Source: Acetobacteraceae bacterium (lineage in GTDB: Bacteria > Bacillota > Sulfobacillia > JAIMBG01). Taken from it: DNA of 39,452 nt. Both the position numbers and the translations under genes were made by a program. Below the pieces are notes generated by a model. The model was not told the origin of the DNA, made no database searches, and was given only the letters and a program-made list of their open reading frames with translations. The stretch is taken from NCBI GenBank assembly GCA_023511555.1, contig JAIMBG010000003.1, positions 1 through 39,452 of the forward strand, given 5' to 3'. Shown in pieces: positions 4,498-36,228 of the stretch (position 1 is the first letter of the stretch; every line of letters starts with the position of its first letter).

Positions 4498-7266
4498 ATG
4501 AACCAGGGAGGGCCCAGCACCAATCCGGAAAGTGGCGGTGGATGCCCAGGCCGGGGTGCGGTTTGGCACCGGGTTGACCTGCACCTCCACAGCCCTGGTG
4601 TGGAGAGTTTCGCCTGCCCCTCCGGAGCCAACCTCAGCAGCGAGGCGGGGCGTGCAGAGGTTGTCGAGAAGTATCTCGCGCAACTGGCGAGCCAGAACAT
4701 CGGCGTCGCAGCGATCACGGACTACAACGGCATACGGCTACACTGGTTCGAGCTTCTCGCCGCTGGGGCCGCAAACCGTGGCATGGTGCTACTTCCAGGG
4801 GTGGAACTGTCCTTCAGGTCGGCCGGGAAGCACGGGCTTCACGTGCTAGCCGTCTTTGACCGCGACGCAGATTGGGCTGGGATCAACCGGTTCCTGCAGG
4901 CCCTGGACAGAGACCCCGCTACCCCGCTGTTCACGGACAGGCTACATCGCGACATTGACCCCAGAGGCAGCATCGCGGATGTACTAAAACAGGTGAGAGA
5001 CCGCTTCAATTGCCTGCTCATTTTTCCCCATCCGGAAGGGGATAACGGTTGCTTCAAAACCTTCAAAGCCCAAGACGCAGCTCGACTTCTGAAGGAGGTA
5101 CGGCCAGACGCAATAGAACACTTTCCGACGGTCGAAACCAGAAAGAAGGCGGCCGTTGAGGTGCTCGGTCCCGACTTCTGGCGCTACCTGTCGCTGGTCG
5201 AGTTCTCGGACGCCAAGCGCATTGAAGAAGTCGGCACCAGGACGTTGGCCGACGGGAGCCCCCGTGCGACCTTCATAAAGCTCAGCGCCACGGACGTGAG
5301 CGCTCTTCGGCTGGCACTCCACGACCCAGCAACGCGCCTGAGCATCGGCGGAATCCCGCGAGCCCCCCATGCCAGGATTGTAAGCACCGCTGTCGAGGGC
5401 TCTGGGTTCCTCGGCAATATCAGCATTGAGTGGAACGATGACCTTAATGTGATCATTGGAGGCAGAGGGGCCGGGAAGTCGGCCATTCTCGAGACGTTGC
5501 GCTACGCTTTGGCACTGTCTCCCTATTCGGACGAATCGTCCCGGATCGACTTGGTCCGGCATGCTCTAGGCAGCGGGGGCAAGGTAACCGTGGTGTTAAA
5601 CCGGCCGCTGGGAGGCGTCAAGAGCCGCGAGTATGTGGTAACTCGAGTCCTGGGCGAAGAGCCCCGCGTAACTGAGGCTGACACAGGAAAGCTTGTGGCC
5701 ATACCCCCCCGTCAGCTGCTGGGCCCGGTCGGCGGCCCCACGATACTTGGGCAGCGAGAGATCCAAGCAGTCTCTCAGAGTACTGGCTACCGCCTGGCTC
5801 TCCTGGATGAACTCATTGGTGACGAGGCACGCGAGCGTGCTAACGCGGTTCGTGAGGCTATCGAGGAACTTCGAGCCAACGCGCGAGAGATCCTGGCCGC
5901 CCGCAAGGCCCTGGAGAAGCGAGAGGAACACCGCCAGCGCCTGTTGGCAATCCGGCATGAACTTGATGTCTATGAGAGACACGGCGTTGCAGACAAGCTT
6001 AAAGAGGTCGGCGATCTACGTAGTGACGACCAACTCTTACGGACCGCAGGGGATACCATCAGGACGGTCAAAAGCGACTGGTCAGCCATGTGTCAGGATC
6101 TTCTTGCCGCGCTGGACGCGGGACACCGCGGCTTGCTTCGCGGCCAGAGCAAGCAGAAGGCACTGCTGGAGGAAGCTGCCCGGACCCTCGCGGAACTGCG
6201 GGACCGGTTGGGGTCCCTCTCGAAACAGGGCCTGACCCTGCTCGACGAAGCCGACCGGGCCTTTGGGGCATTTAGAGACCGATGGAAGGAGCTTATCCTC
6301 CCTCTGGAGGAGGAGATCAACCGCATCAAAAGGGAGGTACGTACCGACGTCCTCGACCCGGACCGCCTCTTGAGATTGGTCGAGGAGCAAACCGCCTTGA
6401 TGCCTTTGCTCGAAGACCTGGACCGGATGGAACGGCGACTCGCGGACCTGCTCGAGAAACGCCGGGACCTGCTCGCCCGAGTTGCCGACCTCAGGTTAGA
6501 GGAACACAAGCTTCGCAGAGAACGGGCCGATGCCATCTCGAGACTGTTACAGGACCGTCTATTACTTAGGATAGAGTTCAAGGGGCACAGGGAAGAGTAT
6601 AAGAAGCGGCTCGCGGCTATGCTGAAGGGGGCGGGTTTGTACCCTGATGCAATTGACAACATTGCAATGGCAACTGACGGGATCCAGTTGGCGGACGCTG
6701 TCCAGGGGGGCCCAGAAGTGGTTCAAGAGCGCTTTGGGCTCACCCCCGCAATGGCTCAACGGTTGGTCAAGCAACTTACGGACGACGAGTCGAGACTCTT
6801 CGAGTTGCAGACCATTATACCCGCCGACGCTGTGGCGGTGTACCTAAGAGTGGACGACGAGTATCGGCCCCTGGAAAGGTTGTCCCTGGGTCAGCGCGCG
6901 ACCGCCATCTTGCTGCTGCTGTTTGCGTTCCAGGGCCGTACTCTGGTGCTGGACCAGCCCGAGGACGACCTCGACAACAGATTCGTGTATGACGACATAG
7001 TACAGATCCTGAGAGAGCAAAAGGGCCTAAGAGATCCTGGGCACCGACGCCAGATCATCGCCGCCACTCATAGCGCTAACATCCCGGTACTAGGCGACGC
7101 TGAACTCGTGCTTGCCCTGGAGGCGAGAGAGGGCCGGGCCCACATAATCGGCCGCGCGTCGATTGACGACGCGCGCATTCGAGAGCTGGTCAAGGCGGTC
7201 ATGGAGGGCGGCGAAGAGGCCTTCCGGCGTCGGGCGGAAAAGTACGGGGGGGTTCCACCCTCATGA
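4498..7266 (+). CDS. PHP-domain / SMC-like AAA ATPase (TrlF-like; similar in architecture to the Ppl antiphage protein)
   Basis: 922 aa; PHP motif VDLHLHSPG and AAITDYNG near N-terminus; Walker A IIGGRGAGKSAILETLRYAL; long coiled-coil region; ABC-like signature LSLGQRATAILLLLF; Walker B TLVLDQPEDDLDNRF; RBS GGAGGGGAGG upstream of ATG. Confidence 0.88.
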   Translation: MNQGGPSTNPESGGGCPGRGAVWHRVDLHLHSPGVESFACPSGANLSSEAGRAEVVEKYLAQLASQNIGVAAITDYNGIRLHWFELLAAGAANRGMVLLPGVELSFRSAGKHGLHVLAVFDRDADWAGINRFLQALDRDPATPLFTDRLHRDIDPRGSIADVLKQVRDRFNCLLIFPHPEGDNGCFKTFKAQDAARLLKEVRPDAIEHFPTVETRKKAAVEVLGPDFWRYLSLVEFSDAKRIEEVGTRTLADGSPRATFIKLSATDVSALRLALHDPATRLSIGGIPRAPHARIVSTAVEGSGFLGNISIEWNDDLNVIIGGRGAGKSAILETLRYALALSPYSDESSRIDLVRHALGSGGKVTVVLNRPLGGVKSREYVVTRVLGEEPRVTEADTGKLVAIPPRQLLGPVGGPTILGQREIQAVSQSTGYRLALLDELIGDEARERANAVREAIEELRANAREILAARKALEKREEHRQRLLAIRHELDVYERHGVADKLKEVGDLRSDDQLLRTAGDTIRTVKSDWSAMCQDLLAALDAGHRGLLRGQSKQKALLEEAARTLAELRDRLGSLSKQGLTLLDEADRAFGAFRDRWKELILPLEEEINRIKREVRTDVLDPDRLLRLVEEQTALMPLLEDLDRMERRLADLLEKRRDLLARVADLRLEEHKLRRERADAISRLLQDRLLLRIEFKGHREEYKKRLAAMLKGAGLYPDAIDNIAMATDGIQLADAVQGGPEVVQERFGLTPAMAQRLVKQLTDDESRLFELQTIIPADAVAVYLRVDDEYRPLERLSLGQRATAILLLLFAFQGRTLVLDQPEDDLDNRFVYDDIVQILREQKGLRDPGHRRQIIAATHSANIPVLGDAELVLALEAREGRAHIIGRASIDDARIRELVKAVMEGGEEAFRRRAEKYGGVPPS

Positions 7267-8450
7267 ACTGGGTGGAGCTTCGGGCCCGCATCGCCAAGTG
7301 GGAGGATCTCCATACGGAGTTCAAGGAGTGGCTACCGCATAAGGATGACGTAGCTGCGAGCCTGGTGGCGTTCGCAAACACGGACGGGGGGCAATTGGTA
7401 ATCGGAGTCACGAAGGAGCGTCTCATCAAGGGAGTCGACGACGCGGATGCTGTGGCTCGGCTGGTGGACGACGTTGCCACCAACAACTGCGAGCCGCCGA
7501 TCACGGTGATCCAGGAGGTCTTGTGGCCCGACAACCACGGACCGGGGGCCGAGACAACCCTCACGGCCAGACCAGTCCTGGTGGTGAACATCCCCAAAGG
7601 GGATCAGCGTCCGTACCGTACTAACCGGGGTGTATTCTACATCCGGACGACATCGGGGCGCCGCAGCGCGTCCCGCGAAGAACTGCTGCGCCTCTTCCAG
7701 GCCACGGAGAGCCTGTACTACGACGAAACACCGCTCCATCGCCTTTCCCTGTCTGACTTCGATTTTGACTCCCTCGACAGGTACCTTGAGGCCACGGGGC
7801 AGCGGCAGCTTCACGGCGACCCGGAACGCCTGCTGACAAACTGGGGCCTCTACCGCAACGGCCACCCCACAATCGCCGGCCTCGTCCTCTTTGGGCGCGA
7901 GCCCCAGCGGCACCTCCCCTTCGCTCAGATCAACGCGGCTCGCTTCCCCGGTAGGGACAGCTCCTTGGAACCGTCTGACCGGAAGGACCTGACAGGCAGG
8001 CTCCTGGACGTGATCGACCAGGCAGAGCGCTTCCTGGACCTCCACCTCAGGGTCCCCCACGAGATCCGCGGCTTCGAGCCCGAACCCAAGCCGGAGCTGC
8101 CCAAGGAGGCCCTCCGAGAGGCCATCGTCAACGCCGTGGCCCACCGTGACTACACGATCCACGGCCCCGTCCGGCTGTTCGTGTTCGACGACCGCGTGGA
8201 GGTCCACACCCCCGGCAAGCCCCCGAACACCGTCGACGAGGGTGCCATGCGCGCTGGAACCCACGTGGTCCGCAACCCGCGCATATACGCGCGGCTTTCC
8301 GACGCCGGCCTGGTCACGCGGGCCGGAACCGGAATCCCCCGCATCATCCGACTGGTAAAGCAGGCCACAGGCCGCGACATCGAGATAAACGTACGGGAGT
8401 TCGAGGTCCTGTTGACCATCCCCAGAACCCGCGCCGACTCCGCGCCGTAA
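7263..8450 (+). CDS. AlbA_2 (Schlafen AlbA-like) / RecG-like HATPase_c_4 domain protein, translationally coupled to upstream ATPase
   Basis: 395 aa; DLHTEFKEWLPHKDDVAASLVAFANTDGGQLVIGV (AlbA_2), C-terminal EALREAIVNAVAHRDYTIHGPVRLFVFDDRVEVHTPGKPP (HATPase_c_4); ATGA overlap with preceding stop. Confidence 0.88.
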   Translation: MNWVELRARIAKWEDLHTEFKEWLPHKDDVAASLVAFANTDGGQLVIGVTKERLIKGVDDADAVARLVDDVATNNCEPPITVIQEVLWPDNHGPGAETTLTARPVLVVNIPKGDQRPYRTNRGVFYIRTTSGRRSASREELLRLFQATESLYYDETPLHRLSLSDFDFDSLDRYLEATGQRQLHGDPERLLTNWGLYRNGHPTIAGLVLFGREPQRHLPFAQINAARFPGRDSSLEPSDRKDLTGRLLDVIDQAERFLDLHLRVPHEIRGFEPEPKPELPKEALREAIVNAVAHRDYTIHGPVRLFVFDDRVEVHTPGKPPNTVDEGAMRAGTHVVRNPRIYARLSDAGLVTRAGTGIPRIIRLVKQATGRDIEINVREFEVLLTIPRTRADSAP

Positions 8451-27970: not shown

Positions 27971-28042
27971 GTGCTCAAGTCCTGCGGCAGCAGCCTGCCG
28001 TACGGCGTGCTCAGGGCCTGCGGCAGCAGGCTGCCCTACGAC
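27971..28042. repeat. Tandem direct repeat, 2 x 36 bp, 31/36 identical
   Basis: GTGCTCAAGTCCTGCGGCAGCAGCCTGCCGTACGGC / GTGCTCAGGGCCTGCGGCAGCAGGCTGCCCTACGAC. Confidence 0.85.
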
Positions 28043-28090: not shown

Positions 28091-29314
28091 TTAGGGCACA
28101 ACGAAGGTCACAATGCTCTCCCGCGAAGGTCTCCGCCCATACTTACCCATCTGCTGCGCGCTGTTGCCCCTGTACCTGACAGCGAGAATGCGGCGGCACG
28201 CGAGGCCAGCTTGTTCGCCCACCTCGGCGCACAACTCATCTACCGGGACCAGGACACCACAGTACTGAGCGTTTCCAACGACGACAGCCACCCTGGCTCC
28301 CGGAAGGCACACGCGACGGATCTCGCTCAACGCAAGATACATGTCGATGAAGTAGCCTTCCACCATAGCGGGAACCCGTCGATCTGTACTGGCGGCCTGA
28401 ATCAGGGACACAATCTCCCTTAGCGTCGAAGGTCGCTGGTACCCTCGAGGCACGGGGCGTTGCGGCCGGGCCTCGGGATGAGAGTGAAAGCTCTGGTATC
28501 GGAGCGCCCGAGTCTGCTCCCAGTTCAAGAACGCTAGCATGAGTTCAACGCCGAACACCCTGGTATAATCATGTCGGTTGGGATAAGGCGGAGAAGTGAT
28601 GACTGCTGTAAACACGCGTCCCGTGACAGGCAGTCGCCGCGCGTCGGCCTGTTCCACCGCCCATTGAGACCCGGAAGGACGATGAACGCGGTTGAGGTCG
28701 GAGAGCATCATGCCTAGGCGCTCAGCAAGGGCGTGGGGGAAGGTGTGTGCTGGCGCTCTCGTCTTCACCCATTTAAGCCAGCCGCCCGCGGGTATGGCTC
28801 GGCTGTACCGGGGTATCACGCCCAGCACGCCGAGTCTAAAAAAGTCCCTCTCGGGTTCAGATAAGGGCAGCTCAGCTATGGTAGCAAGGGCGGAGGCGAA
28901 GGTACCTAGCAAACGGCCGGGCAGCGCCCTTCTTACCAGTTGGGAGTAGCGTCCATGAGCACGACCGGGCTTACCAAGGGAGTCAAGCAGTCGGGAAGAG
29001 AGCGCGGAAAGCCGCTTGACGTCCAAGTCGCTGACCTTTGTTCTCGCTGCGAGGACGGCCAGGGGCGAAAGGTCAAACCCGGTCGCGGGTACACCCTGTT
29101 CACGCGCGGCAAGTACCGTCGTCCCGGCCCCGACGAACGGATCCAGCACGCGATCCTTGGCACCCAAGTTCCACTCCTCAAATAACGCGTGTACTAGGTC
29201 GCTGGAGAAGCTGTGGGGAAACACGTACCAGCGGTGAATGGGCTTGGAGTGAAGACCGTGGGGGGTCACCCAAGGTCCCCAGGCTGGGCGTTCCTCTACC
29301 GCATAAGTGGGCAC
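28091..29314 (-). CDS. DNA methyltransferase (amino-methyltransferase with TSPPY motif)
   Basis: VLDPFVGAGTTVLAAREQGVPATGFDLSPLAVLAA (motif I) and VFTAVITSPPYPNRHDYTRVFGVELMLAFL (motif IV). Confidence 0.9.
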   Translation of the reverse strand: MPTYAVEERPAWGPWVTPHGLHSKPIHRWYVFPHSFSSDLVHALFEEWNLGAKDRVLDPFVGAGTTVLAAREQGVPATGFDLSPLAVLAARTKVSDLDVKRLSALSSRLLDSLGKPGRAHGRYSQLVRRALPGRLLGTFASALATIAELPLSEPERDFFRLGVLGVIPRYSRAIPAGGWLKWVKTRAPAHTFPHALAERLGMMLSDLNRVHRPSGSQWAVEQADARRLPVTGRVFTAVITSPPYPNRHDYTRVFGVELMLAFLNWEQTRALRYQSFHSHPEARPQRPVPRGYQRPSTLREIVSLIQAASTDRRVPAMVEGYFIDMYLALSEIRRVCLPGARVAVVVGNAQYCGVLVPVDELCAEVGEQAGLACRRILAVRYRGNSAQQMGKYGRRPSRESIVTFVVP

Positions 29315-29320
29315 TAGCGT

Positions 29321-31138
29321 TCACCCCGCGCGCTCATGGCCGATCCCCCGATATGCCGGCTGCGGGAACTCTATCTTGATCGGCTGTCGGTATATGGGGT
29401 GCGATAGCAGCAACTCCCCTTTGTTCAAACGAGTGAGGTGCGCCTTTAGAGCCTGAGCAATATGCCGGTACGCGGGTTCGGAGAGCTCCGAGGAGTCGCT
29501 GCGACCAATGACCTTGGTTGCACAGTTCCCAACGACTTGGGGATGGACTTCGCTCATGAATTGCTCCGCCGAGATGAGAACCACCCCCAGCGACCGGCCC
29601 CGGGCGGCGATGTCCAGAACGTACTCGAGTATCGAGGATTCTCCCTCCGTCCGCCGTGAAGGAGCATATTTGTTGAGCTCGTCGACGAACAGTATGACTT
29701 TCTTCGGTAGGTCACCCAGTTCGTCGACTGTAGCCTCAGCATACATGTTGTATACTTCCTGCACAATGTGGCCCAAAGCCAGGGCTCGCTCTTCCTCCGT
29801 CAGTCTCGCCACGTCCACCACGGTGACCTGGCCCCCGCGAATCTGCCGGATCTCCTCACCCAGATTGACGGCACGCCGGGTGGCGCGCTGCTCCACAAAC
29901 ACCCCCGACTGGCGATTCTTGACCACCCGCCTGAGGATTCGCACGAAGCGTCCGACGGACGCAGGTTTCACCCCGCTGACCTCCTGGGGCACCCCCTTAT
30001 CCATGAGCGGCGGTCCGCTCAGTAGATCGCTCCACGTGCTGACTTTGCTCCATTTCGGCTCCTGATTCATGATTCCCTGATGGATTTCGCCGATTAGCGC
30101 TCCCAGGGTGTCCCACGGGTCCGGCACCCGAATGAGCAGCCCCAGCCCCGGTCCGGGGGAAGTCCGCGTCCCTATAACGTCTTCCAGCGAGTATGCATAC
30201 ACCTGGAACTGGTCCGGTGGCTCCCCGAAACAATTGGGAAGGCCGGTGGTTTGAGTTTCCTTCCCCCAAGGCAGCAGATAGCGAACGTTGTCGAAGGGCT
30301 GGGGCCGAAGTCCAAGGAGCTCCCACAGCTCATACTCCTCAGCCTTCATATCGTGCCTGGGCTTATCAATGACCAGGAGATCATTCTGCTTCACGTTCAG
30401 AATCACCACTGCGATGTCCTTGGAGCCAACCGTCTGCAGTATCGACTGTATAAGAAACATGGCGTATGAGGTTTTCGTGGCGAGGCCGGAGATGCCAGCT
30501 ATGTTCACATGCGCCCCCTCAGGCCCCAGCACGTAGCGCTTGTCAAGGTACACGCGCACCCTGCTGCCATTGGAGATGCGCACGACCCCAGCGGGAATCG
30601 CGACTCGGTCCCTATGCTGGCGCTCGTACTCCATCATCTTATCGATGCCTAGGGCGACGTGGACCCCACCTTCGTCGGCGAAGCGCACCGGTGAGTCGCT
30701 CTGTACTGGCATGTAAATGCCCATCGGATAACGCTTGGGGTCGGAAGGGTCATAGTTGGCTAGGACACTTACTTCTGCCACGTTTGCCCCCTGCCTCGGC
30801 GTCTGGGGCAATACCCGGGTGCTCCCAAAATCGCTAGAAATATAGTTCGAAAGATGCGACGGAGCGTCCGTGACCTGCTCTATATTGGTCACTAGCCCAA
30901 ACGTTCGTGTCCCTCCGATATGGTCGGCCTCCACTATGTCAAAGGGATTGACGATTTCCTCAGGCGCCAACCAGAAGAAGAACTTCTCCGCAGAGTTGGG
31001 CTCGCGGTCGGTGGCAGAGGCTTTTCCTATGATTCGGCGGCTCCCGTCCACCGCTTCTTGCTCCGCTGATTCTTTCTCACTGCGAGGCACGACTCGAACT
31101 GCCACTGCCTGATCCCCCCGACTCTCATTGTTGGGCAC
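29321..31138 (-). CDS. HerA/FtsK-superfamily-like ATPase (DUF87-type)
   Basis: VNIAGISGLATKTSYAMFLIQSIL (variant P-loop), PKKVILFVDELNKYAPSRRTEGESSILEYVLDIAARGRSLGVVLISAEQFMSEVHPQVVGNCATKVIGRSD; GTG 31138; ORF extends to 31198. Confidence 0.85.
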   Translation of the reverse strand: MPNNESRGDQAVAVRVVPRSEKESAEQEAVDGSRRIIGKASATDREPNSAEKFFFWLAPEEIVNPFDIVEADHIGGTRTFGLVTNIEQVTDAPSHLSNYISSDFGSTRVLPQTPRQGANVAEVSVLANYDPSDPKRYPMGIYMPVQSDSPVRFADEGGVHVALGIDKMMEYERQHRDRVAIPAGVVRISNGSRVRVYLDKRYVLGPEGAHVNIAGISGLATKTSYAMFLIQSILQTVGSKDIAVVILNVKQNDLLVIDKPRHDMKAEEYELWELLGLRPQPFDNVRYLLPWGKETQTTGLPNCFGEPPDQFQVYAYSLEDVIGTRTSPGPGLGLLIRVPDPWDTLGALIGEIHQGIMNQEPKWSKVSTWSDLLSGPPLMDKGVPQEVSGVKPASVGRFVRILRRVVKNRQSGVFVEQRATRRAVNLGEEIRQIRGGQVTVVDVARLTEEERALALGHIVQEVYNMYAEATVDELGDLPKKVILFVDELNKYAPSRRTEGESSILEYVLDIAARGRSLGVVLISAEQFMSEVHPQVVGNCATKVIGRSDSSELSEPAYRHIAQALKAHLTRLNKGELLLSHPIYRQPIKIEFPQPAYRGIGHERAG

Positions 31139-32258
31139 GTGCAGGGAAGGCTGGCCACCTAAGCCCTGCGCGCAAAGCCTCACTGGAAATGAACGCATTC
31201 TTGACCGCCTGCTCGGCTAAGTGGATCGCATAGAGGTGCGCGTGCCAGCGCGGGTCCTTACCGTGCGGTGTTACATGTCGCTCAGCAACCAGTACCGCGG
31301 ATATCTCATCGATCAGCTCTGAAGGCACTGCTTCGCGGGTTGGGTTGGGAAACTCGACCTTGACCACCCCCATGAGGGGATAATCCAGGTGGCGTTGCTC
31401 CCGAAGACGAACGTACCACACAGCCATCTGGCCCGAGCGGACGGAGAAAGCACACGTCCGCGCTGAATGGGGTAGGCCGGCGAGCAATTCATACAAGTTC
31501 ACTACCTGCCTTGCGCCACCCCCAGGCAGCGTAAAGGTCGGCTCACGGCTGAATGACTTGGTCACGCCGAAGAAGTGCGGAACGTTGCGCCATGCGTGCA
31601 GGTCCTTGCCCAGGCTCCCATCTAGAACCAGCCAGTGGCCGGGTTCCCGCGCGAGGTTGCGTCCCAAGGCGTCCTCCAGCTTTGCCATCATGTGGTGGGC
31701 CTTGTGTGCAGCACGTGAACGGGGCTCCTTGCCAGGGGACGTCATCTCGCTTTCGCCGTCTTCCTCCATGATGTCGCAGAATCTGTATGGACCGCCAGCC
31801 TCCTGTACCAGCTGGGCGACGCGTTCTCCAAAGGACACAGCCTTCTTATCCATCATCAACACGATCTGCCTTTCGAATCCAGCCACCTTTACTCGCCCGT
31901 CGTCCAGCCGGAACACCACGGCGGCTCCGATCTGGGCCACATGGACAGATGTGCGCCGCCTGCCTTCAACCACGTCTCCCAGGAAATACGTTCGGGCGGA
32001 GCCGTCCAGGAAGTACCTCAACATGTGATGCTCGTTCCGATGTAGCGGGCGTAATGTCACATACGGCCTCCGGTTGGGGGCCTCCAAGACGACGTCCAGC
32101 AGCCGGTCTTCGCCCATTCGAAGCGTATCGATGACCTCTTGATGATCCGGCCGCACCAGATCCTCCATGGCCTGGCCGGTAGCGGGCAAGACCTTGCCTT
32201 CCCGGTTTATCAACTCCAACGCGGGATGAAGGCCTGCGAAAGGATTGCGCATCGTCAC
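31125..32258 (-). CDS. NurA-domain nuclease
   Basis: 377 aa; LRYFLDGSARTYFLG and HWLVLDGSLGK acidic motifs, C-terminal HLYAIHLAEQAVKNAFISSE; between methylase and HerA, overlapping both. Confidence 0.8.
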   Translation of the reverse strand: MTMRNPFAGLHPALELINREGKVLPATGQAMEDLVRPDHQEVIDTLRMGEDRLLDVVLEAPNRRPYVTLRPLHRNEHHMLRYFLDGSARTYFLGDVVEGRRRTSVHVAQIGAAVVFRLDDGRVKVAGFERQIVLMMDKKAVSFGERVAQLVQEAGGPYRFCDIMEEDGESEMTSPGKEPRSRAAHKAHHMMAKLEDALGRNLAREPGHWLVLDGSLGKDLHAWRNVPHFFGVTKSFSREPTFTLPGGGARQVVNLYELLAGLPHSARTCAFSVRSGQMAVWYVRLREQRHLDYPLMGVVKVEFPNPTREAVPSELIDEISAVLVAERHVTPHGKDPRWHAHLYAIHLAEQAVKNAFISSEALRAGLRWPAFPARAQQ

Positions 32259-35200
32259 GAATCCTCCAGGGACCGCCTGATCTCGGCCGACTCCTCGTCA
32301 GTCAGCCCCCACAAAGCGGCGGCCCATCGATCTACCTGGCCCTGAATCCGGGCGACGCGCTGCCACTCGGTCTGCTTGGCTGCTTCGTGAGCCTGCTGAG
32401 AGAGTTCAGCCAGCCGGACATGGGCTGTATTCTTGGGGGAAAACCGCGGTATGCTTACATGTTTCAGGACATGAGGGTCAGGATGCAAGACTATGTAATT
32501 CTTGATGGCGAGGCGGGATGGCGCCGAGTTGAGCACAGCACAGAGGTAGTGCGCCTCCTCCTCGCTTGCGCAGTCAACAAGAATACACGTGTGATCGGGA
32601 ATCACAGGCTTTGCGACGCCCAGGACGTCCGCGCGTCCCACGACGGCAGCCTCTACCTCGTTAGCTACCTCCCGCCATACGACCTTCCACGGAGCAAAGG
32701 TGAAGAGGCTGACGTTAAACATCGACCAATAGGGATCTGCATCTTTGAAGTATCGTCGGAACGCCGCCCGCCGCCGCAGAAGCACCTCGAATCTGGAAAG
32801 ATACGAGTGGGCTTTCGGATACCGTGCCTCCATGACCTCACGGCTTATGCCTCTACGGGTCGACGGATCCTGGGTCATCAAGATGTGGCCAGAAGGGACG
32901 GCGGACCAGCGCCTCACGTCTCGCCCCCGCAACAAGGGATAGAGCAGCTCCGGTTCCACCGACGCCTGAGTCCGCGGCACCTCGCGACGCGCACCCTCAG
33001 TAATGTTTGCCACGATGGCGAAGCCGCCGGGCCGGGGACTCACGATGTCAACCCAAAACACGGCATTCGCCCCGCCTGTGTTGCATCCCTCGTGAGCGGT
33101 GTAATGAGATGAACCCAGCACTTTACGCAGGGCACGGATCGACCAGCGCCTCCCGGTCAGCCACGCTGAGGTAGGGTCTCCGGCGTCAACCGGCTCAGCA
33201 AACCACTCACGGTAGGTTACCTTCTCGCTGCTGACCGCTGCATAGGGAGTGTCAAAACCGATCGCGCTCCCCCGCCCCGTCTGCCGCTTCTTCCAGTACT
33301 GGTAGGACACGGGATAACGCACCGCGTGCCCTTTAGCAAACACAGCCACCGTGGGCCTGTTCGTCGCACGCTCAAAGGGGTCCAACTCTGTCATGTCTTC
33401 CACCACCAGGGGACCGAAAGGCGTTCCATCAGGGAGGCAAAAGCGGCGGAACCCCTGGCTGGCAGCCGAGGCCTTGAACAGGCTCTGCGAAAGCAGGAAA
33501 CCCAGCTTGCCACCTTGCCGCAGGTATCGGTGAGCGGCAACGTAGGTCATGAGCATGGAAATGTCTTTCTTGCCTTTCCCTAGGATGGTATCCATGCCCT
33601 CGTGGGGAAACAACTTATAGTACTCCCATAGGGGCTTCGTCCGCGAGCGGTAGTCGTCCGGCAGGTTCTCCCAGTTCACCCATGGGGGGTTGCCAACCAC
33701 ATAGTGGCAAGGCTCCAGAAAGAGCGGGGCGAAGGTGTTCTTCACGATTCGGGCCCAGACCCCGTCGAGGCCCTCATCGTGCAACTCTCGGAGCTGACGG
33801 TAAAGCAGCCTGATGTCTCCCTCCGCAACCGCCATCTCCTCCGGCTCGACGATACCCGCCGAGGACACCCGTGCCAGAAAGGCGTCCTCGGCGACACCCG
33901 CCTCCGTTGCCTCATCCAGGAGATTCGCCAGGGCGTCCAGCCGCTGGCGGTCTGCGAAGCAGGCTGGAATGCGGAACACCCCTACCGAGGTCGTGAGAGG
34001 GTACACGTTGTCCTCGAAGATCCCCGTCCCCGGTTGCGGCGTGAGCACCGAGTCAGCCTGATACACTGGAATATCTATGGGGCGATCAGCTAGCCGCGCC
34101 TTCAGCAGGTCGCCGAGGGCAAGCAGGTAGTTGGTCCGCGCGGCAATGACTGCCAGTGGGTTGAGGTCGATCCCCACGACATTCTGAAGGATCAGCATCA
34201 GCGTCTCGCGCGCATCGGACTTCTTCCTGCCTGCCCGATCTCTGATATGCCGTATAAGCGCTACAAGGAACGTACCGGAGCCGCAGGCGGGATCCAGAAC
34301 TCTCTTGCGAGGGTTGCCGAGGTCAGCCTCCCCGAGTGTTTGCCGGATCAGCCTCTCCGCAAGCCAGTCAGGGGTGTAGTACTCGCCCAGGTCATGGCGA
34401 ATGTCGCGCGGGAGGAGGTAGTGGTACAACTTCTTCAACAGGTCGCGGGCATTCTCCGGCGCAAGCTCCAGAGTACCGGGATCATACTTCGCCAGTTGCC
34501 TTGCCAGGCGTGCCGCCGCCCACTCCACCTCCTCGTCCCAGGCTGGCAGGTACCACCCGAAAAAGTCACCTTCTAGAAAGTTCCGGATGCCGTAATCCCT
34601 GAACGGGTCTCCCCGCTCAAGCGCAGCGAAGGCCCAGCGCAGGTCTGCTCCCTCTGTGCACCCCAGCTTCTGCAGGGAAAGGTGCGAGCCTCCGGCAAAA
34701 TGCTCCGCCGCCAGAAAGGCTATGAGCTTGATGAGCAGCGCGTAGTACGTGTGGAGTGCGAAGAATACCCGCGGGGCCTCCACATACCTCGGCTCCAGCC
34801 CCATGCCCCGCACAAAGCTCTGGAATTCCTCCTTGCCTTCGATACGGGAGGCCCACTCACGGTAGTCGGTCGCCTCCCCGAAGAAGGTCGCCCACTGCTC
34901 GAAAAGCTTGATCACCAGAGGGTGCTTGCTCCGGTGAAGTGCTCGGTACAACGCCCTCACCGACCGCTTCGCGTTGTCGGTACGAGGTCCAAAGTCGGCC
35001 AGCAGATTCTCAGGGACCAGGGCAGCACCTGTGGCAAGCGAAAACAGCAGGCGCAGGAACAACTCTGCGGAACCCTCGTTGACAGCTACCGGCTCATCAA
35101 TTGACCAGCCGTCGCCGACCCGTCTGACGAAGATAAAGTAAAACCCGTCTGTTACCACACCGGCCAAGCGGCTTGCCTCGCGCCGTTCCCGCCTAGCTAC

Positions 35201-35515
35201 ATCCAAAATATAACCCTCAACCTGCTCTATGACGCTCTTGTTGGCATGCCCAGCATTGCTTGGCCTCAGAGTACCAGGGCGTTTGTACTCCAGGACGAGG
35301 CGGTTGTACAGGGAATCGACCCTACCACGGGCAACGGAATACTCGTCTCTAGGCTTGAGAACGAGCCCGGCCTCCAGGGCCGTCTCCTCGAGAACGCGGG
35401 CTGCCTCCCGCCGGAAGTCGGCCTCGGTTCCCCCCCGCCCCGCACTTTCTTGGAGGGCCTGGGCGACCCGGGAGGCAGAACGGGAGACCAGTTCTTCAAC
35501 AGTCGCGCTCCCCAT
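32255..35515 (-). CDS. Eco57I/type IIG-like protein: N-terminal PD-(D/E)xK-like motif + N6-adenine methylase + target-recognition region
   Basis: 1086 aa; RVDSLYNRLVLEYKRPGTL (D...ExK), DPACGSGTFLVALIRHIRDRAG (motif I), YVVGNPPWVNWENLPDDYR (NPPW), C-terminal TaqI-like specificity-type sequence. Confidence 0.88.
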   Translation of the reverse strand: MGSATVEELVSRSASRVAQALQESAGRGGTEADFRREAARVLEETALEAGLVLKPRDEYSVARGRVDSLYNRLVLEYKRPGTLRPSNAGHANKSVIEQVEGYILDVARRERREASRLAGVVTDGFYFIFVRRVGDGWSIDEPVAVNEGSAELFLRLLFSLATGAALVPENLLADFGPRTDNAKRSVRALYRALHRSKHPLVIKLFEQWATFFGEATDYREWASRIEGKEEFQSFVRGMGLEPRYVEAPRVFFALHTYYALLIKLIAFLAAEHFAGGSHLSLQKLGCTEGADLRWAFAALERGDPFRDYGIRNFLEGDFFGWYLPAWDEEVEWAAARLARQLAKYDPGTLELAPENARDLLKKLYHYLLPRDIRHDLGEYYTPDWLAERLIRQTLGEADLGNPRKRVLDPACGSGTFLVALIRHIRDRAGRKKSDARETLMLILQNVVGIDLNPLAVIAARTNYLLALGDLLKARLADRPIDIPVYQADSVLTPQPGTGIFEDNVYPLTTSVGVFRIPACFADRQRLDALANLLDEATEAGVAEDAFLARVSSAGIVEPEEMAVAEGDIRLLYRQLRELHDEGLDGVWARIVKNTFAPLFLEPCHYVVGNPPWVNWENLPDDYRSRTKPLWEYYKLFPHEGMDTILGKGKKDISMLMTYVAAHRYLRQGGKLGFLLSQSLFKASAASQGFRRFCLPDGTPFGPLVVEDMTELDPFERATNRPTVAVFAKGHAVRYPVSYQYWKKRQTGRGSAIGFDTPYAAVSSEKVTYREWFAEPVDAGDPTSAWLTGRRWSIRALRKVLGSSHYTAHEGCNTGGANAVFWVDIVSPRPGGFAIVANITEGARREVPRTQASVEPELLYPLLRGRDVRRWSAVPSGHILMTQDPSTRRGISREVMEARYPKAHSYLSRFEVLLRRRAAFRRYFKDADPYWSMFNVSLFTFAPWKVVWREVANEVEAAVVGRADVLGVAKPVIPDHTCILVDCASEEEAHYLCAVLNSAPSRLAIKNYIVLHPDPHVLKHVSIPRFSPKNTAHVRLAELSQQAHEAAKQTEWQRVARIQGQVDRWAAALWGLTDEESAEIRRSLEDS

Positions 35516-36228
35516 CGGCCCCCACCCTTCTCAAAGCCCGGGAATGCAGACCAGGCTTGGGCGAGCAAACGCTTCGTCCAGAGAGGACTATTCGACGACT
35601 GCGACGAGCTCCCCTGCGGTCGGCGAGTAAGCAGTCCAATCGAAGAAACTGCTCCCGCCTTACCAAGATACTACCACCCCGGTCTTCTAAGAGTCAAGGC
35701 GTAGCCCTGGCACTTAGAGGTGACAGCAGATTCCTTGGCCCTGGGCAACACGTTCCTTCCCGGTTGCGCTAGTCCACACCCGCCGAGCCCCGAGCCAGCC
35801 CCGCTCCTGGGGGCCGGTTTGCGACCGCCGGACGGGCCGGGCGGGAGGAAACCGTACATGAGCGCAGGAGCGGTCGCCTACGCCGTCGGCTTGAGGACTT
35901 CAAGCGCCTCCTTCGCCACAGGTCGGCTCGTAGACTCCCTGAGGGCTCATGATCCTGAAGCGCCTCTGCCTCGTCCGGCGCCGGGCCACGAGTTCACCCC
36001 AGAATCACGGCATCAAAGGCTCTGAAGTTAGGCAAGAGACTGCCGGGTCGGCCCCGACTCCACCATTCCGCCTCCGCATCCCAGCCCGCCATACCCGGCC
36101 TCCACTCCTCGTTCCACCGCGGCCATGCCCCTACCGCCCGGGATGGTGCCGCGGCGCCGGCAAAAAAGAAGGGAGCCCGGCCCCCCATCCGCTGTGCCCA
36201 CCCAAATCCGCCCCCCGCCGAGGCGCCG

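Follow-up and report, generated by a model that had tools for sequence, protein, structure and literature searches.

A type IIG restriction enzyme joined to a NurA-HerA pair and a second methylase in a transferable cassette of tdtA-operon composition: a candidate restriction system

What would a bacterium do with two DNA methylases, a NurA nuclease and a HerA-type DNA motor encoded side by side? The question is raised by four consecutive minus-strand genes in a stretch of 39,452 nucleotides (the window), the features of which are collected in Table 1. A first reading made from the sequence alone (the sequence-only reading) had proposed an ATP-dependent restriction machine in which the methylases mark self DNA and the HerA-NurA complex degrades unmarked DNA, and had left open whether this composition had been named. 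The four ORFs were found where that reading had placed them, as were the 6 nt between the HerA stop and the M2 start.

Table 1. Features of the four-gene cassette and its upstream region, in window positions.
Feature	Position	Strand	Size or motif	Basis or remark
M1, predicted type IIG (IIC) restriction endonuclease-methyltransferase, TspDTI/Tth111II subfamily	32255..35515	-	1086 aa	PADLOC, Pfam, motifs, domain order
M1 nuclease motif, PD-(D/E)XK type	35282..35317	-	D67-x8-E76-Y-K78	Homologue alignment
M1 target-recognition segment	32396..32875	-	Codons 881-1040	Placed by alignment from the L020/L021 and L076/L092 swaps
NurA	31125..32252	-	377 aa for the ORF from GTG 32258 (31125-32258)	Probable ATG start 32252
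HerA/TdtA-type hexameric DNA translocase	29321..31105	-	594 aa; 625 aa for the ORF from 31198	Probable GTG start 31105
M2 amino-methyltransferase	28091..29314	-	407 aa; DPFVGAGTT ... TSPPY	
Sigma-70-like promoter match	35668..35697	-	TTGACT-18-TAGTAT, extended -10	About 150 nt upstream of M1; consensus scan

Two of the gene junctions had to be redrawn after comparison with relatives. NurA relatives begin with an invariant methionine that corresponds to residue 3 of the window's NurA ORF, and NurA probably starts at this ATG, 2 nt past the M1 stop, so that the GTGA at 32255-32258, previously taken for an overlap of the M1 stop with the NurA start, is probably unused. In the relatives, HerA genes encode ~550-588 aa and HerA homology begins ~30-50 residues inside the window's HerA ORF; the start at 31198 is likely an over-long call, and GTG 31105 is preferred. 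With the later start, NurA and HerA would not overlap as had been thought. The G+C content of the four genes is 58.8-61.2% (67-72% at third positions) against 71-74% (81-95%) in the neighbouring genes, and such a low value inside surroundings of ~72% G+C marks the four-gene block as foreign. It should be noted that the promoter match is suggestive by its position only, because the consensus scan of the region gave 1 match against 2.0 expected, which is not above chance.

The sequence-only reading described M1 as a PD-ExK/Eco57I-like methylase. The methylase is there, but M1 is, in its predicted architecture, a full type IIG restriction enzyme-methylase: the PADLOC model for type IIG enzymes, PDLC03630, covers practically its entire length (1157 bits across residues 18-1084), Pfam N6_Mtase matches as well, and a single chain carries, in this order, an N-terminal PD-(D/E)XK nuclease, a helical linker, an N6-adenine methylase with NPPW and a C-terminal target-recognition domain, with the nuclease, SAM and NPPW motifs all intact. 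Residues D67, E76 and Y77 are invariant across 39-43 homologues, and position 78 is K or E (E in most), a choice described for the TspDTI subfamily (PMC3384240). The first match of a model of residues 1-345 was the nuclease of the type IIL/IIG enzyme DrdV (probability 0.99), with an E value of 0.11 that makes it support, not proof, for the nuclease domain. The layout matches that of TspDTI, with catalytic residues D67/E76/K78 in M1 and D66/E75/E77 in TspDTI (PMC3384240); the Thermus enzymes TspDTI, Tth111II and TsoI have D-EXE, whereas M1 of the window has D-EXK. The earlier statement that the system is not classical type II is therefore wrong as regards M1, which has the make-up of a classical type IIG enzyme, one that both cuts and marks.

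Relatives of M1 of ~640-950 aa, matching from about residue 165 and lacking the nuclease domain, are present in the window's own genome (L117, C179; 6739-9597 of L117) and in the genomes G329, G138, G218, G313, G334, G352 and G391. They have ordinary chromosomal surroundings in the loci inspected (L117, L118 and L119), and are possibly orphan methylases descended from a type IIG enzyme. A different variation is seen in L076 (207-4211), where M1 has a 229-residue in-frame insertion between the SAM motif and NPPW with Vsr/DUF559-like endonuclease sequence (family assigned by eye). The insertion is missing in L092, though the methylase parts are 98% identical.

The second gene gave no match in Pfam, NCBIfam or PADLOC, and its sequence matches to the PDB were borderline (E 0.26 with the single sequence, 0.048 with a profile). 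Its AlphaFold model (pLDDT 88.5) matches Deinococcus radiodurans NurA (7f6d, E 1.4e-11) and TM1739 (E 4.8e-8), with nothing else below E 0.001 in the fold search, and D85-G-S and D213-G are conserved in 60/61 sequences. The proposed NurA-family nuclease is thus confirmed by the predicted fold. The assignment of the third gene as a HerA-like ATPase also held: Deinococcus HerA is the closest structure (7f6d_B, E 1.8e-41 with the single sequence and 2.8e-65 with the profile), the unusual Walker A sequence GISGLATKTS (GISGVATKTS in Deinococcus) is present in 59/60 relatives, and Walker B reads VDELNKYAP. The features of a bacterial NurA-HerA complex are therefore present, i.e. a NurA fold with its catalytic acids, a HerA with both Walker motifs, and adjacent genes. 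Moreover, the identity of NurA between genomes rises and falls with that of HerA (correlation 0.98), as it should for proteins in one complex. Both proteins belong to the same bacterial family as the D. radiodurans pair, sharing Walker A GISG.ATKTS and the NurA fold, although the likeness of NurA is essentially structural (16% identity) and no coupled restriction enzyme has been described in Deinococcus. M2, recognized from the start as a second TSPPY DNA methyltransferase, is probably an N4-cytosine or N6-adenine DNA methylase, as suggested by its matches to Pfam N6_N4_Mtase (1.2e-6) and PADLOC MTase_II (PDLC03224, 3.9e-54) and by its DPFVGAGTT and TSPPY motifs, motif I coming first.

The composition of the cassette is already known, while this member of it is new. 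A literature search for NurA together with type IIG enzymes led to the work on the Thermus tdtA operon alone. This operon (TTC1877-TTC1880), located in ICETh1 of Thermus thermophilus HB27, encodes a type IIG enzyme (Tth111II/TthHB27I), NurA, TdtA and an N4/N6 methylase (PMC5365140), of 1106, 377, 568 and 410 aa compared with 1086, 377, 594 and 407 aa in the window, the likeness being one of order and sizes (PMC5365140). Base composition is also comparable, with 58% G+C in a 68% host for the ICETh1 operon and 59-61% against 71-74% for the window cassette. However, ICETh1 is an excisable integrative and conjugative element (ICE) with a XerC-type integrase and tRNA repeats, whereas no ICE, integrase or tRNA repeats were found for the window cassette. 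The tdtA-like cluster of T. scotoductus DSM 8553, named in the same work (PMC5365140), is locus L062 of our collection; it is without M2, and its proteins are 42-59% identical to those of the window (M1 ~0.44-0.49, NurA 0.42, HerA 0.59). DNA donation by transjugation in Thermus requires the type IIG enzyme, NurA and TdtA (PMC5365140, PMC7767461): deletion of tdtA abolishes donation, that of nurA lowers it by 4-5 orders and that of the type IIG gene by ~3 orders (PMC5365140), while transfer is little affected by deletion of the second methylase (PMC7767461). Neither paper reports a restriction or phage phenotype for the operon (PMC5365140, PMC7767461). The cassette therefore matches a characterized system in composition and order, but the characterized function is DNA donation.

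As the sequence-only reading had stated, the cluster is neither BREX nor DISARM, since it contains no PglZ, BrxC or DrmA/DrmB. For BREX, DISARM and MADS, PADLOC gave only partial methylase or ATPase similarity (PglX, mad2, mad8), and the Mad gene set is not in the window cluster. The SIR2-HerA and DUF4297-HerA defence systems likewise couple a hexameric motor of the HerA type to a partner protein, be it a nuclease or another effector; their partner is SIR2 or DUF4297, whereas the window HerA has NurA, two methylases and a type IIG enzyme beside it. The match of the window HerA to the defence HerA 8xau is weak (E 0.024 with the single sequence).

A scan of 85,462 species genomes with NurA alone returned 66 loci, spread across more than 15 phyla (as taken from the titles). 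In the 34 loci with enough flanking sequence, a few of the loci being near-duplicates, HerA is adjacent to NurA in 34/34, M1 is in the cluster in 29/34 and M2 in 17/34. The expected co-occurrence of the four genes is thereby borne out, and these counts support a conserved, co-inherited methylase-NurA-HerA-methylase cassette. Within the phylum, the NurA search was positive in 12/398 genomes, and M1 at an identity of at least 46% over its length was found in 9/398, always in the same cluster as NurA and with one copy decayed; more distant M1 relatives occur without this NurA. In plasmids no NurA was found, and plasmids and phages contain only 27-32% identical relatives of M1. A viral origin was considered and rejected, there being just 2 related loci among 2.9 million viral contigs. 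One contig classed as viral (L133, IMG/VR 3300045912_000930) does contain M1, NurA, HerA and M2, all at ~43-47% identity, and may be a provirus or misclassified host DNA.

In a sister form, observed in six loci (L054, L067, L068, L077, L081 and L083), the order is NurA-HerA-M1 and then a gene for a B12-binding radical SAM protein; M2 was found in none of them. The radical SAM proteins are 56-72% identical to that of L067, and in some of the loci a DUF3800 or SocA-like gene lies in between. Judging from this arrangement, the radical SAM enzyme may stand in for the second methylase.

The cassette is evidently a horizontally acquired, self-contained block that moves as a unit. The window NurA is 70-74% identical to copies in Moorella, Syntrophomonadaceae, a Desulfobacca, a Nitrospirae and an Armatimonadetes genome, but 44% identical to the one found within its class; the window cassette is thus nearer to the former, which indicates transfer between phyla. 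No flanking sequence is common to L020 and L021, and among 112 proteins flanking 14 relatives no family occurs in more than 2. The Pfam view of these flanks covers the 25 most frequent of 149 families, and a single integrase could escape it. In the window, no tRNA, no Rfam match and no notable direct or inverted repeats were found at the element ends, and the genes neighbouring the cassette gave no integrase match. An empty site was not found, the genes flanking L021 having just distant relatives in sister genomes. A decayed cassette (L019/L031), in which M1 is without residues 170-794 and a deletion fuses HerA to M2, lies in L019 at the chromosomal position where a sister species has the intact L020 cassette, although the decay is possibly an assembly error instead.

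Single neighbours in the flanks of relatives include BrxF, BrxC, HEC-07, PDC-S15 and LmuA, which are listed here for their occurrence, with no enrichment claimed. In L044 (1089-3807), BrxF and the N-terminal half of BrxC (DUF6079) stand directly upstream of M1-NurA-HerA-M2, i.e. BREX parts are mixed with the module. In L039, L040 and L080, an AAA_21 (HEC-01A-like) ATPase gene and a DUF4276-like gene are directly upstream of NurA, and in L039 they lie between M1 and NurA.

Close pairs of cassettes revealed an exchange of recognition parts. L020 and L021 come from two genera of one family and are 86% identical in DNA, but only 54% in a 480-base block comprising M1 codons 881-1040, with identity recovering at once on both sides (log-likelihood ratio 125.6 against 26.6 for the best of 30 block shuffles). 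L076 and L092 differ by a like replacement at the corresponding place in M1 (91% against 61% identity; log-likelihood ratio 111.4 against 67.3), and the exchanged block takes in the loops that have been suggested to determine the specificity of TspDTI (PMC3384240). Across seven close cassettes, identity in the recognition segment correlates only weakly with that of the rest, at r 0.31-0.46, while the other parts correlate among themselves at 0.66-0.97. M2 is replaced independently, being 0.52 identical between L044 and L049, whose HerA proteins are 0.91 identical. The possibility that M2 guards the sites of M1 found no support, because M2 stays 87% identical where the M1 recognition segment was replaced; M2 does not track this segment, and the two methylases therefore probably protect different sites. 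Two recognition elements thus vary around a constant motor and nuclease.

Turnover of recognition elements is usual in restriction systems under shifting pressure from foreign DNA. The clean swap of the M1 segment between nearly identical cassettes fits the behaviour expected of a restriction system, and points to selection on M1 rather than proving an involvement of HerA-NurA.

Taken with what the window cassette or its relatives show of composition, motifs, NurA fold and transfer as a unit, this exchange makes it somewhat better than an even bet that the cassette is a restriction system coupled to an end-processing motor, i.e. a mobile type IIG enzyme and a HerA-NurA module acting on unmarked DNA. 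From relatives it is known that type IIG enzymes cut and mark, that HerA is driven by ATP and that NurA-HerA resects ends. In the host genome, M1 would mark one strand of its asymmetric site; in DNA lacking the mark, it would cut or nick ~11/9 nt away. A HerA hexamer and a NurA dimer would then load on the ends, pump the duplex and degrade or resect it. M2 would add a second, independently evolving mark aiding the distinction of self from non-self, and the methylases would protect self DNA from HerA-NurA. We infer both the role of M2 and the action of the complex on incoming unmarked DNA in this organism. Some relatives adjoin defence genes (BrxF-BrxC in L044, a HEC-type ATPase in L040). Against a restriction function stands the fact that the sole homologous operon to have been tested, tdtA, acts in DNA donation (PMC5365140, PMC7767461). 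Furthermore, TspDTI, a member of the M1 family, restricts alone, and its flanks, like those of TsoI, contain no methylase (PMC3384240), which means that restriction can do without HerA-NurA. Of the machine proposed in the sequence-only reading, what stands is the conserved cassette with its intact motifs and exchanged M1 segment; what does not is its novelty, the type IIG enzyme itself being classical and the composition known.

A DNA donation machine of the transjugation type is a less likely but serious competitor, and the strongest one: M1 would nick or cut the cell's own DNA, NurA would trim the ends, and the HerA/TdtA hexamer would pump double-stranded DNA to a competent neighbour. The gene order and nearly equal sizes are those of the very operon whose deletions cut donation (PMC5365140), and a ComEC homologue in the window's genome makes DNA uptake possible. 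However, outside Thermus thermophilus the cassette was not seen in an ICE, the window has no integrase-, tRNA- or repeat-bounded element, the flanks of the relatives are unrelated, and donation gives no clear reason for the repeated clean exchange of recognition segments. Less probable still is that two functions merely adjoin without joint action, the type IIG enzyme restricting and modifying while NurA-HerA repairs its breaks by end resection, as proposed for Deinococcus. The Deinococcus pair, of whose family both window proteins are members, indeed resects 5' ends (PMC9960219), but NurA is patchy in the phylum, M1 accompanies it in most of the flanked loci, and Thermus tdtA mutants are not heat-sensitive and only marginally UV-sensitive, unlike other HerA-type genes (PMC5365140). 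Chance neighbourhood or a decayed island without function is very unlikely. Parts of M1 and of HerA-M2 are indeed deleted in one sister copy, L019, but in the window every catalytic motif is intact and the frames stay open across 7.4 kb, and different phyla share the gene order. Restriction with a motor-nuclease is accordingly the reading we favour over donation and over independent restriction and repair, giving it slightly more than an even chance.

If the cassette restricts DNA, a family present in more than 15 phyla would gain a function, and restriction would here involve a type IIG enzyme that passes its product to a separate ATP-driven motor-nuclease. The most thoroughly studied member of the family, through which gene exchange in Thermus has been explained, would then be defence machinery put to another use. 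A wider proposal, to which we give rather less than an even chance, is that the tdtA-type operon is at root a widespread unrecognized restriction system, with recognition by the type IIG enzyme and destruction of the cut DNA by HerA-NurA, that donation in Thermus is secondary or a by-product, and that the sister form swaps M2 for the B12 radical SAM enzyme. Restriction and donation predict opposite results for incoming and outgoing DNA.

Two further observations concern the surroundings of the cassette. Just downstream of the M2 stop, at 27971-28042, are two tandem 36-nt copies that are 86% identical. On the plus strand at 4498-8450, the window contains a second block of low G+C (61-65%), with a gene for a 922-aa AAA_21 ATPase (N-terminal VDLHLHSPG stretch; PADLOC Ppl, 4e-36) that overlaps a gene for a 395-aa Schlafen AlbA_2 and HATPase_c_4 protein, which looks like another acquired defence-type pair.
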